Assembly: GCA_016342715.1 (NCBI GenBank)
Contig: JAEINW010000026.1
Location: 1-34,666 of the forward strand
Origin: Salinivirgaceae bacterium
GTDB lineage: Bacteria; Bacteroidota; Bacteroidia; Bacteroidales; SZUA-534
Reading direction: 5' to 3'
Length of the DNA stretch: 34,666 bases
The notes beneath the pieces were generated by a model that had not been told where the DNA came from, made no database searches, and saw nothing but the letters and a program-made list of their open reading frames with translations. The position numbers were made by a program, and so were the translations under genes. Shown here piece by piece: positions 3,433 through 32,558 of the stretch; positions within the stretch are counted from its first letter, which is position 1, and every line of letters starts with the position of its first letter.

Positions 3433-4543
3433 ATGAAAAATAAAGTATTCAACCTAATTATTTGCACACTTATTGTAGGGGGGGGGGATTACATCTTGCC
3501 AAAAAACGCAAATAATAGAAGACAACCAACCAACTCTTGAGAATGAAAGCTTAACTGTTGAGAAACAACTCATCAACTTCAATAACAAGATGTTAAATCC
3601 AGACCATAGAAAATCAGGTGAAACAATATTACTTAACGATGCGATTGATTTAATGGAAGGTGCTTTTAATTATTATTATGGTTTCATAAATAATAATTAT
3701 TCAAAAGTCGAGACCCAAACAACTACCGTTAAAGTAGATTTCTCTACAAATTCTCAAATCCTGATCTCAAAAATTCAAGAATTATATATCCAACTAAACA
3801 ATCAAATTTATAATACATATAATAGTATTGAATTCGAACAAAAACATTTAAAATTTGTGGATATTGAATTCACCACTGTTGAAAATGAAAATTTTATAAA
3901 ATTAAATGTGGGTGTTGGTCAAGTTGCTTCAAATAAAAGCATTACGTGGGTAAATAAAACTCCTTTTAATGACCAAACTGATCAAACTTGGCTATTAAGC
4001 ATCTACCCCCCATCAAATGATCACTACGAATTTTATGAACAATCAAATGCAACAATAGCAATTAATGAACTCGTTAACATTACTCATGCTAATACTGATC
4101 AATATGTTTACCTTGTGGAAGAAACAGACTATCTAGAAAATCATTTTCCCTATGAAGAAATATATAATTCTACTGATATTGATTTAGCTGCTCCAAATGA
4201 GTACCCAGGTTCTTTGCTATTCGAATATGGTTTTGCTGATGCTAATGGAGCATGGGAATTCTATGGCAATATGCCCAATGGCGACCAAATTAATTTTGGA
4301 TATGAAGGTATATTTGTTAATTACAAGGTTATGAATAAGCTTTATAATGTTTGCATGTACACCATTGAAACATATAAGCCATATATGAAAGAAGCGATAA
4401 ATTCAAATCTTACCAATGATTGTTACGTTTACTTTCATGAAGGAAATTATTACGGGTGGGCTTCGGGTAAATTTAAAGTCACCTACGCTTCAAAATATAG
4501 ACGTATATTTATCGAAGTGCCGAGGGAGCCTTGTTTGATGTAG
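3433..4543 (+). pseudogene. Lipoprotein gene frameshifted at a G10 tract (possible phase-variable gene)
   Basis: An ATG at 3433 opens a signal peptide (MKNKVFNLIICTLIV) followed at once by ten G (3478-3487). As written, this frame ends at a TGA at 3538-3540. With nine G the codons read GGGITSC, giving a lipobox (I-T-S-C, lipidated Cys22), and then run without interruption into the frame open from 3590 to 4543. The restored product would be 369 aa: an outer-membrane or periplasmic lipoprotein of unknown function, rich in Asn and Tyr, with no domain I recognise. The G run begins exactly on a codon boundary inside the signal peptide, where slippage would switch export and translation off. Three readings remain: a contingency locus in its OFF state, a decayed gene, or a homopolymer sequencing error. 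The ATG at 3590 would give a protein without an export signal. Confidence 0.72.
3478..3487 (+). repeat. Mononucleotide G10 tract within a signal-peptide coding region
   Basis: Ten consecutive G in an otherwise very AT-rich surrounding. The run begins at codon 16 of the lipoprotein frame. Lengths of 9 or 12 would restore the reading frame; 10 breaks it. Confidence 0.9.
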
Positions 4544-4547
4544 AATT

Positions 4548-4591
4548 AAAAAGACACTAATTGAAAAGGTATTTTCAATTAGTGTCTTTTT
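4548..4591 (+). terminator. Intrinsic terminator after the lipoprotein gene
   Basis: Two perfect 20-nt inverted arms (4548-4567 and 4572-4591) flank a 4-nt loop (GGTA). The distal arm ends in a T run and the arms begin five bases after the stop codon. The A run on the proximal side means it could also stop transcription coming from the other direction. Confidence 0.85.
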
Positions 4592-4637
4592 AAAATAAAA
4601 TAGTTAGCATCAATAAATCACAATTTAGATACTGTCT

Positions 4638-4794: not shown

Positions 4795-6186
4795 ATGAAA
4801 TTTATTTTTACAAATGTCCTAATTTTTACATTAATTAATCTTTGTTCTTCGCAAACTTTTGAAACTACTTTTTGGAAAACTGAAGGATCTCAACAAGCCC
4901 AAGTTATTGAACTATCAGATGAAAAATTTATTGTTAGTGATTTGGTACTACAACCTGATTATAATTATTACCAAAAGTTTTTTTTATTTGATAAATATGG
5001 TGCATTATTGACCACCACGGAATTTGAAAATGAATTATTTTGGAGCATGAAGGCGGTTGGTTTAGATTCCATTTTATTATTAGGAAATGAAACTATAAAT
5101 GACTCGACCAGTAATATTGTTGTGAAATTAGTCAATTCAAATTTTGAAGAATTACATATTGACAAAAAGGAAGTTGAATTCCCTTTTTTCAATAAAGCTC
5201 TTCTTTTAAACTGGAATGATACGTTGTTTTTTCTAAATATTTACAAAAACTATTTTAACCAGCCCGAAACAAAATATGTATTTGGGAGAATAGATAAACA
5301 ATCGTTTGAAATTGTTGATACCGTTATTCAAACAATAAATTTAAATAGTTGTAGGTTGTTTTTAGGTTCTGTAAATGGTGATTTTTACCTAATTGAAGGA
5401 TGGGCTAAAAAATATTGTTTTACCAACGATTTCACCTTTATTGCAGATTCAAGATTAGGTGATGGTCATGTAATTGGAAATTATGATGCCATGGTTTTAC
5501 CCGATTCATCTCATTACATTCTAAATGGTTTTAATAGCGAATATTCAATGGAAAACGAGGATTTGGCACTAATAAAAACAGATGCCAATCTGAATGTACA
5601 AGAAAAGTATTTATTTGAATTGGACTATCCTACAAACCGAGTGAGCAAATTTACTAGTTTTGCCCAACACCCAAATTATTTTATTATGGGAGCTACTGTT
5701 AATTTTGATCAACACCCAACAACATTTGTTACTAAACTAGATTATGATTTTAATGTATCTTGGCAAAAAGAAATTTCATCAACCGATCCGCATTATTTAT
5801 CGTCAGTAACTTCAACAAAAAATGGCGGTGCAATTTTAATTTCGATTGGCAATAATTCTGATAGTACTACAGACTATTCATACTTGCGAATTATTAAAAT
5901 GAATGCGAATGGTGGATATAATTCAATTTTCATAAAAAGAGACTTCGAAAATACCGTTAGCATTTATCCAAATCCGGCAAGCCATAATATAACCATAAAA
6001 TGCAAAAGGGCTCATTTACCAAATCAGTTAATTATAACAAACAATATTGGAAAAGTTGTTTTAGAAGCTCAATTGAAAACAGAAGAAACAACTTTAAACA
6101 TTTCACAGTTTGAGCCAGGCACTTACGTTTACCAATTAAATAATGGCCGTCAAATTATTGGCTGGGGAAAATTTATTAAAGAGTAA
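4795..6186 (+). CDS. Secreted protein with T9SS type A sorting domain
   Basis: A 463-aa exported protein. The N-terminus is a Sec signal peptide (hydrophobic core about residues 3-17, likely cleavage near CSSQT). The C-terminal 75 residues (about 388-463) are a Por secretion-system sorting domain: it opens with SIYPNPASHNITI, has the central II.NNIGKVV strand and the FEPGTYVYQL segment, and ends in a short basic tail. That domain directs export across the outer membrane by the type IX system. The middle has several stretches of the form K-x-D-x(4)-W or L-x-K-x-D (for example VTKLDYDFNVSW), which suggests beta-propeller-like repeats, but no catalytic motif is visible. It seems monocistronic. 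Function unknown. Confidence 0.88.
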   Translation: MKFIFTNVLIFTLINLCSSQTFETTFWKTEGSQQAQVIELSDEKFIVSDLVLQPDYNYYQKFFLFDKYGALLTTTEFENELFWSMKAVGLDSILLLGNETINDSTSNIVVKLVNSNFEELHIDKKEVEFPFFNKALLLNWNDTLFFLNIYKNYFNQPETKYVFGRIDKQSFEIVDTVIQTINLNSCRLFLGSVNGDFYLIEGWAKKYCFTNDFTFIADSRLGDGHVIGNYDAMVLPDSSHYILNGFNSEYSMENEDLALIKTDANLNVQEKYLFELDYPTNRVSKFTSFAQHPNYFIMGATVNFDQHPTTFVTKLDYDFNVSWQKEISSTDPHYLSSVTSTKNGGAILISIGNNSDSTTDYSYLRIIKMNANGGYNSIFIKRDFENTVSIYPNPASHNITIKCKRAHLPNQLIITNNIGKVVLEAQLKTEETTLNISQFEPGTYVYQLNNGRQIIGWGKFIKE

Positions 6187-6636: not shown

Positions 6637-6661
6637 TATGGTAATACTTTTTAAGATTGCG

Positions 6662-6669
6662 CAAAAATA
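6662..6669 (-). promoter_or_regulatory. Putative -7 box of queD
   Basis: TATTTTTG on the minus strand matches TAnnTTTG exactly and lies 25 nt before the queD ATG. No clear TTG was found at the -33 distance. Confidence 0.35.
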
Positions 6670-6761
6670 ACAATTTTAATGGGCGAATGTTTGATTTTGC
6701 AATTTATCCGCCAATTTTTGCCATGTTTTTTTTATATTTATATGAATTAAATTATCTAGCA

Positions 6762-7649
6762 ATGAAAATTTCGATAGTATCAATAGTTTGTTTGGTCTTT
6801 CTTTTGGGATGTTCTAATTCTAATAAAGATAAAACAATTGTGGATGAGAGTACTTTTAATATAAGTGACAACGATGATAATGAAAACCAATCAACAAATG
6901 ACGAGGTAGTATTCTACAATGTTTTTTCACCGGTTGATTTAGAAAATATGATTAATGAAAAAAACTCATATTTCAATTCATCACTTTTAAATAGCACTGA
7001 TAATTTAACCTCTTATACTGAAAGCTCTAAGATTGCTTTAAACATTGGAGTTTATGGAGCCGATTTAAGTTATTTATGGGTATTTGCGCAAACCCAACAA
7101 GCATTATCGTATTTAGCAACCATTCAACACCTAAGCAACAAGTTAGGAATACCTAGAGATTATGTTGATTTCACCTCTGAATCGATTGAAAATAACATGC
7201 AAAATATGGATTCCATTGCATCAGTAGCACGCAATGCGTACAATGCCGCAGCCAATTATTTAAATGGAAGCGAACGCAAAAATGCATCCATATTAATTCT
7301 TTTAGGTGGTTGGATTGAAACGCTATACATTTCAACTCAAATGTACACAAAACCCGACCCTATTTTGGCTAGTAAAATTGCAACGCAAAAATATTCCCTA
7401 AACAGCATAATTACACAAATGCAAAACCATCAAAATGACTTGGTTATGTCAGAATATCTGATTCTTCTCAGAAAGCTAAATGAAACTTTTGCAATTTTTG
7501 AAAGCCAATTAAAACCAGGGGATATTGAAATTGATACTGCGAATAAAAGAATTACCATAAAAGAAAACAGCAGCTTAGATATTAAACCTGCTCAACTTAA
7601 CGAAATTAATGAACTGGTAGGGAAAATACGCAAGCATATTATAAATTAA
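6762..7649 (+). CDS. Lipoprotein, paralogue A of a tandem pair, unknown function
   Basis: A 295-aa lipoprotein. I chose the ATG at 6762 because it begins a clean lipoprotein signal (MKISIVSIVCLVFLLGC, lipidated Cys17). The frame also has an ATG at 6657, but using it would put 35 extra residues in front of the signal. After a charged, disordered linker comes a domain of about 240 residues, mostly helical, with VFYNVFSPVDL, then TESSKIALNIGVYGADLSYL, a later LILLGGWIETLYIS, and KIATQKYSL. The same motifs recur in the next gene (8005-8919) at roughly half identity, so the two arose by duplication. I do not recognise a described function. The conserved Gly/Tyr/Trp-rich blocks suggest a structured periplasmic domain. 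Confidence 0.85.
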   Translation: MKISIVSIVCLVFLLGCSNSNKDKTIVDESTFNISDNDDNENQSTNDEVVFYNVFSPVDLENMINEKNSYFNSSLLNSTDNLTSYTESSKIALNIGVYGADLSYLWVFAQTQQALSYLATIQHLSNKLGIPRDYVDFTSESIENNMQNMDSIASVARNAYNAAANYLNGSERKNASILILLGGWIETLYISTQMYTKPDPILASKIATQKYSLNSIITQMQNHQNDLVMSEYLILLRKLNETFAIFESQLKPGDIEIDTANKRITIKENSSLDIKPAQLNEINELVGKIRKHIIN

Positions 7650-8004: not shown

Positions 8005-8919
8005 ATGAGAAAAAATATATTCTTTGTTTTTATTCTATTCGTTACTTTCCTTATAATAAGCTGCGCTCCTAATAAAAAGGCAGAAGTAAAAGAGAAGCAT
8101 CTTGAAACTGAAATGCAGGTTGAAATAAATGAAAATGAAGTAAGCTTTAATCCAGATAATTATCAAGCCGAAGATATTGTATTTTATAATTTATTCTCTC
8201 CTGTTGATTTAACTTACTTGGTTTCGAAACAAAATGCTTTTTACAATTCGTATTTAATAAACCCAATAAACAACATTACAAAATATACCGAGAGTAGTAA
8301 AATTGCCTTAAACCTTGGTGTTTATGGTGCCGATATTAGCTATTTATGGATGTTCGATCAATCACAACAATCTCTTTCGTACCGATCGGCTATTCAGCGA
8401 TTAACCGATAAATTAGAAATACCTCGCGATTTTGTTGATTTTACCTATTTGCAAGCAGAAAATTATCAGGAACAATTTGACTCTTTAGTTTTTGTGGCAA
8501 GACACTCATACACAACTGCCGATAATTATTTAAAAGAAGCTGATAGAGAACATTCTGCAGCATTAATTTTACTAGGAGGATGGATAGAAACCCTATACAT
8601 TGCTACTCACATGTTCGAAAATCCAGACAAAAAACTTTTAAGTAGGATTGCCATTCAAAAATATTCTCTTAGCAGTCTCTATAATATACTGCAAAAATAT
8701 CAGGATGATAATGATGTAGCTGAATATTTACTTTTACTTAAAAAGCTGAAAAAAACCTACGATGAACTTGAGGTTCAATTTGAAGCTGAAAGTTTAGTTA
8801 TTGATACCGCAAAAAAAAGAATTTCGTTAAAGCCTGATGCCGCCTTTGAAATAACTCCCGCTGACATTGTAAAAATAAAAAACCAAACTAGACAAATTCG
8901 GGAATATATAATAAAATAA
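8005..8919 (+). CDS. Lipoprotein, paralogue B of a tandem pair, unknown function
   Basis: A 304-aa lipoprotein: hydrophobic signal ending in LIISC (lipidated Cys20), then an acidic, Lys/Glu-rich linker, then the same domain as the gene at 6762. Shared blocks are VFYNLFSPVDL, TESSKIALNLGVYGADISYL, LILLGGWIETLYIA, KYSLSSL and the terminal VIDTAKKRISLKP. It ends two to three helical turns after the last block, as its partner does. The two genes are 355 nt apart and each carries its own signal peptide, so they are full copies rather than a split gene. Function unknown. Both products should sit on the same membrane and may form hetero-oligomers; this last point is inference. Confidence 0.86.
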   Translation: MRKNIFFVFILFVTFLIISCAPNKKAEVKEKHLETEMQVEINENEVSFNPDNYQAEDIVFYNLFSPVDLTYLVSKQNAFYNSYLINPINNITKYTESSKIALNLGVYGADISYLWMFDQSQQSLSYRSAIQRLTDKLEIPRDFVDFTYLQAENYQEQFDSLVFVARHSYTTADNYLKEADREHSAALILLGGWIETLYIATHMFENPDKKLLSRIAIQKYSLSSLYNILQKYQDDNDVAEYLLLLKKLKKTYDELEVQFEAESLVIDTAKKRISLKPDAAFEITPADIVKIKNQTRQIREYIIK

Positions 8920-31912: not shown

Positions 31913-32162
31913 TAATTAAGCTTAAGTAATATTATACAGCTTGATACAATTCATATGTTTTAATTAGGGTTCATGCAAAAAAAACAAAAGCCACAACACG
32001 AATAGCAAATTTGGTTTTTGTGTAAATTGATAATTAAAGTACAAATAATGTTGAAAACCAAAAGAGCTATTTCTTCCAACACACGTCGTAAATTGATACC
32101 TTTACTTTGTATTAAAATTGAAAAATGGCATTAAGCTAGAACGAAAAGAAGAAAAAGAAATA

Positions 32163-32558
32163 ATGCAAGAAAACAACTCACAAATCATTATATATCAAAC
32201 AGAAAGTGGAGAAACCAAATTAGATGTTCGTTTACAGGACGAAACCGTTTGGCTTACTCAATTACAATTATGTGAGCTCTTTGACAAATCGAAAGCAACC
32301 ATTAGCGAGCATATAAAACATATTTTTGAAGAAGGAGAACTGGAAGAAAATTCAGTTGTTCGGAATTTCCGAACAACTGCCCAAGATGGTAAATTAAATC
32401 TTCCTATGGCTTTTCTTCGGTCGGTGGCAAAAGAGGTGCAGCATTTACTTCTACCAAAAATTTTGTGTCTGATAAATGATCAGTTAGCTTGTGATTTACA
32501 TATACAAAAAACTCATCAGGCATTTCAACATCCAAATCTATATACGCCCAATTACTAA
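32163..32558 (+). pseudogene. Truncated RhuM-family gene
   Basis: The first 77 residues match the N-terminus of RhuM-family proteins: IIIYQTESGETKLDVRLQ, VWLTQLQLCELFDKSKATIS with a helix-turn-helix look, EHIKHIFEEGELEENSVVRNF, and TTAQDGK. Homology stops at about 32393; whole RhuM proteins run past 300 residues. The rest of the frame to 32558 is only the reverse strand of the neighbouring secreted-protein gene. The ATG at 32163 matches the family start, although the frame opens at a TTG at 32118. A perfect 27-nt palindrome lies just before the break. A remnant of an accessory gene is the best reading. Confidence 0.8.
32353..32379. repeat. Perfect 27-nt palindrome at the RhuM break point
   Basis: Arms 32353-32365 and 32367-32379 (13 nt each) are exact reverse complements around a single T. 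It encodes the VVRNFRTT region of the RhuM remnant. On the minus strand it lies 24 nt past the stop of the secreted-protein gene and is followed by AATTTTCTTCC, so it might also end that transcript. Confidence 0.85.

Follow-up and report, generated by a model that had tools for sequence, protein, structure and literature searches.

Surface proteins whose reading frame is set by a repeat of variable length are known from several bacterial groups. In the opa genes of Neisseria, CTCTT repeats in the region encoding the leader peptide set the frame (PMC3960869), and homopolymeric contingency loci have been described in Campylobacter, Helicobacter, Bordetella and Mycoplasma (e.g. PMC8355987, PMC2831843). 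In the Bacteroidales, phase variation is known mainly as DNA inversion affecting capsules, surface proteins and SusCD systems, and slipped-strand switching is not mentioned in a 2025 review of model gut species which covers these inversions (PMC12632263). The locus described here resembles opa in that the number of repeat units within the sequence coding for the signal peptide decides the reading frame of a surface protein, here a probable one, and in the existence of multiple gene copies, while it differs from opa, with its pentameric repeats, Opa proteins and measured switching, in involving a G homopolymer and Bacteroidales lipoproteins and in being known from sequence alone. With the homopolymeric loci it shares a homopolymer in the gene, a consensus that is out of frame and an intact frame beyond; unlike those loci, which have been tested and often form genome-wide sets, it is the only one in its genome. 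The order and the targeting of surface molecules are common to this locus and the Bacteroidales inversion systems, whose mechanism is invertible DNA, whereas tract slippage is proposed here. The gene is probably a new addition to the homopolymer contingency loci already known. A few targeted queries of open-access text returned no published report of such a locus, but this argues only weakly for novelty.

The window, that is, the whole stretch of 34,666 nucleotides that was analysed, is contig 358 of the draft genome of an environmental Salinivirgaceae bacterium (5.54 Mb in 358 contigs, 98% complete). A lipoprotein gene on its forward strand begins with an ATG at position 3433, and codons 1–15 (3433–3477) encode the start of a signal peptide, MKNKVFNLIICTLIV. 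Ten consecutive G residues follow at 3478–3487, the first of them opening codon 16; the tract thus occupies codons 16–18 plus one base, and the ATG frame is at +1 relative to the mature frame. As assembled, the ATG frame reads MKNKVFNLIICTLIVGGGDYILPKNANNRRQPTNS and is terminated after 35 codons by a TGA at 3538–3540. The mature frame is in turn shut upstream by a TAG at 3476–3478, overlapping the first G, so that no upstream start codon is usable for it unless the frame is shifted. From 3488 to 4543 this frame, beginning ITSCQKTQ, encodes the remainder of the lipoprotein, with the lipobox ITSC (Cys codon at 3497–3499) and the mature body, and is open for 351 codons before its stop at 4541–4543. 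The earlier note had placed a ten-G run at codons 16–18 of a lipoprotein signal sequence, had judged this length to be out of frame and had found no other lesion downstream, and all three statements hold for the sequence. Its description of the downstream frame as intact was likewise correct, but its size of 300 codons was an underestimate; similarly, nine G residues would give the 369-aa lipoprotein with Cys22 that it proposed, but twelve would give 370 aa with Cys23. The gene carries no lesion besides the G tract and, as expected of a contingency locus, the homopolymer lies within the 5′ coding region, its length sets the frame and an intact coding frame lies beyond it.

Joined in frame, the product reads MKNKVFNLIICTLIV-GGG-ITSC, with the charged n-region, hydrophobic stretch and lipobox Cys of a lipoprotein, and this Cys is invariant in 28 aligned relatives. 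The Lys at +3 is nearly invariant across the family, with CQKTQ in the window protein and CNKDE in both copies of the most closely related genome (G004, see below). The G004 sequence comes close to the surface-export motif (LES) of Capnocytophaga, C-X-K-(D/E)2, with Lys at +3 and acidic residues at +4 and +5 (PMC5080379), and surface exposure is plausible, but the window protein has T and Q at the last two positions. Searches of the lipoprotein against Pfam, NCBIfam (curated cut-offs) and PADLOC gave no match, nor did anti-phage defence models, and the PDB contained neither a sequence nor a fold match. An AlphaFold model built from three sequences reached a mean pLDDT of 41.5 and was usable only N-terminally, at approximately residues 24–148; a fold search with this weak model gave no match at E ≤ 0.001. 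No canonical Bacteroidota promoter pattern was found 5′ of the gene. Directly after the stop codon lies a terminator-like 22-bp perfect hairpin with A/T runs (4546–4593, z = −10.8), followed on the same strand by a partner gene (4795–6186) whose secreted product bears a C-terminal T9SS sorting domain of type A (PF18962, E = 3.6e-11; TIGR04183, E = 8e-10), as is characteristic of T9SS cargo. Elsewhere in the window we observed two similar tandem lipoprotein-like genes (6657–7649 and 8005–8919) with no Pfam or NCBIfam match, and a short frame (32118–32558) that, judging by its sequence, resembles the beginning of a RhuM-type gene and appears to be truncated.

The earlier note regarded a long G run as telling in such AT-rich DNA, which is true of the window, where a first-order Markov model predicts 0.007 G/C runs of at least ten, but not of the whole 5.54 Mb genome, where approximately 0.94 are expected. 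Since about one G10 is expected per genome by chance, the bare existence of the tract is weak evidence, and it is its position and its recurrence that carry the case. G/C runs of at least eight number 10 in this genome, fewer than the approximately 22 expected, the window tract being the longest of the ten and the sole one inside a signal peptide; the other nine are intergenic, in short frames, or intragenic and away from the start. The search for further poly-G tracts in exported-protein genes proposed in the earlier note revealed no repertoire, the other G8 runs in apparently exported genes being mid-gene and in frame, and the notion of a genome-wide repertoire in this organism was dropped. 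An excess of tracts at the signal peptide position becomes apparent through their recurrence in G004 and in a second genome, G367. As a separate observation, two intergenic runs of G8/G9 in the window's genome (L006, G000:C121:255; L012, G000:C267:5736) have the common flanks ttgctacagtactgtaaa ... aatagaaattatacc.aG8-9tgt and, because of this shared sequence, seem to be two copies of one small repetitive element.

The mature frame defines a lipoprotein family without a name. Of the 393 genomes of the order that were sampled, 51 contain it, and 88 members were examined; a contig scan using the window protein alone as query returned no matches. Among the 46 members with enough downstream DNA, 44 are followed by a same-strand ORF of at least 150 codons starting less than 400 nt downstream, and many of these ORFs have a visible signal peptide. 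The majority of the family start in frame in the usual way and lack a G run: over the 90 nt preceding the lipobox Cys, the maximum length of a G run is 0–4 in nearly all and 8–10 in six, with no intermediate values. Homologues lacking any G run had been named in the earlier note as grounds for rejecting the switch, and most distant homologues do indeed lack one, whereas the nearest homologue has a G8. Contingency loci ordinarily come and go between lineages, and for this reason the absence of the tract from most homologues does not refute the reading. Four members display other lesions, namely an in-frame TAG breaking the signal peptide (L034, G107:C89), a TGA where the lipobox Cys should be (L022, G068:C124), and one-base shifts close to an A6 run (L028, G085:C179) or a T7 run (L112, G219:C154); these broken signal peptides could be the outcome of decay, MAG error or A/T-tract switching.

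The nearest relatives of the window gene are two copies in G004 (MAG Salinivirgaceae CSMAG_2877), which represents another genus of the same family. The closest homologue, L018, has a G8 from codon 15 and is out of frame at +1, with an intact 329-codon frame beyond. The second copy, L023, is also at +1, with a G run of only four; it possesses its own ATG in the mature frame, and its partner gene carries an in-frame TAA, which we interpret as a sign that this copy is probably in decay.

G367, a distant genome of another family, contains ten runs of at least G8 in 3.8 Mb, eight of which are located at codons 8–10 of lipoprotein signal peptides; one of these eight loci is in frame, six are at +1 and one is at +2. 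Four of them are paralogues homologous to the window gene, with G8–9 in the signal peptide and all out of frame, three forming a tandem array on contig C49 at a spacing of approximately 2.78 kb, each followed by a T9SS-sorted protein; a fifth copy is interrupted by a contig end. The four leaders are near-identical and the distances from ATG to mature frame are 34, 34, 34 and 32 nt, so that only the tract itself differs in length. The mature bodies, in contrast, are only 33–48% identical, and all their frames are open, with dN/dS values of 0.27–0.79 (dS being near saturation). As these diverged bodies remain open under such constraint, translation of the ‘off’ frame evidently continues to occur from time to time. 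The other four loci encode different lipoproteins preceded by the same leader module, G9 followed by YRTTGTTAG; the C29 locus is in frame and three are at +1, among them one on C205 which is open for only 122 codons. This module is absent from 395 class-sampled genomes and from 20 other genomes of the family to which G367 belongs. The in-frame member, L117 (G367:C29:19172), reads in its sequence like a C10-type cysteine peptidase lipoprotein.

G runs were also noticed in a further genome, G116, where runs of G11, G9 and G15 (C57:1875, C111:1304 and C161:5) follow one coding-like context (CAAACCCAATGG or CTAACTCAATGG) that seems to be an FG-GAP-like repeat; a further family of surface proteins may thus vary through G tracts. 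An order-wide rule of ATGA, a short gap and G8 was rejected because, in the hits that were inspected, the high counts of some genomes came from a small number of very long runs, from repeats and from contexts other than signal peptides.

The preponderance of the +1 state raises the question of recoding, in which the gene would be fixed out of frame and expressed at a constant low level, rather than switched on and off, either because RNA polymerase slips on the G run or because ribosomes shift by +1 at GGG-G. The window gene, both G004 copies and six of the eight G367 loci are at +1, and L023, which retains this state with just G4, at first suggested an obligatory +1 frameshift. L023, however, resides in the decaying cassette described above and has its own in-frame ATG, while the same leader module in G367 is in frame at one locus and at +2 at another, for which a strict +1 shift cannot account; moreover, only about five of some seven independent cases are at +1. 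We consider recoding unlikely on this evidence. Somewhat less probable still is the view that a chance G insertion knocked the gene out and that decay is under way. It would fit a single-copy gene that is out of frame, the broken N-termini of L022, L028, L034 and L112, and the nonsense codon in the partner gene of the L023 cassette, but it sits poorly with 351 codons that have acquired no second lesion, with the preservation of terminator and partner, and with G tracts that recur in this family and at these codons. An assembly or consensus error, the real tract being in frame throughout and the gene simply intact, is similarly improbable. In its favour, homopolymers are prone to error and the draft comprises 358 contigs. 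Against it, independent assemblies are out of frame at the same codons, the large housekeeping genes of the window (polA, atp genes and others) are unbroken despite nine A/T runs of eight, there being no G/C run above six besides the G10, so that the assembly is not generally frame-damaged, and even a miscounted tract would remain a long one.

Translational phase variation through slippage at the G tract is the reading which we consider probable for the window gene, and the proposal of a contingency locus in the earlier note is supported by the out-of-frame G8 of the nearest homologue and by the G8–9 tracts in differing frames of the four G367 paralogues. Recurrence of the tract, its differing lengths, the one in-frame copy, the constrained bodies and the conserved leaders together make up the anatomy of slipped-strand phase variation. 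In the window and G004 the tract begins at codon 15–16, close to the lipobox; in G367 it lies at codons 8–10, and such recurrence at different positions points to repeated selection for a signal peptide tract. The single copy of the window gene in its genome counts against a switch, as do the lack of any further signal peptide tract there and the many homologues without a tract, and the +1 state in nine of the eleven compared loci exceeds what random switching would predict, with only about seven of these loci being independent. The comparison draws on one genome per species and on draft assemblies, and the differences in tract length come from the G367 paralogues only.

According to the proposed mechanism, the gene would encode an outer-membrane, probably surface-exposed, lipoprotein, and slipped-strand mispairing would add or remove G residues at the tract, thereby determining whether the signal peptide shares a reading frame with the lipobox and mature body. 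The population would thus be a mixture of ON and OFF cells switching at random, and the assembled consensus would represent the OFF state, in which only the 35-residue peptide is made. We infer that slippage takes place in the living population, and a surface-exposed product that is switched in this manner may be advantageous, for instance in the face of phages, predators or immunity.

For G367, we tentatively propose, as a possibility that we hold with less confidence than the switch itself, that a portable G-tract signal peptide module (G8–9 followed by YRTTGTTAG) has become attached to a number of unrelated lipoproteins at eight loci, including tandem cassettes of a lipoprotein with a variable body and a T9SS protein, the window gene being an independent case in another family; a slipped-strand system would then operate beside the known DNA inversions in some Bacteroidales. 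This shared leader module, if confirmed, would be the more unusual part of the findings. Should the proposed switch be real, a homopolymer in lipoprotein signal peptides would give the large order Bacteroidales another and simpler means of varying the cell surface, one that extends to environmental lineages without a known host, and lipoprotein genes that look ‘frameshifted’ in such genomes may in fact be live but OFF.
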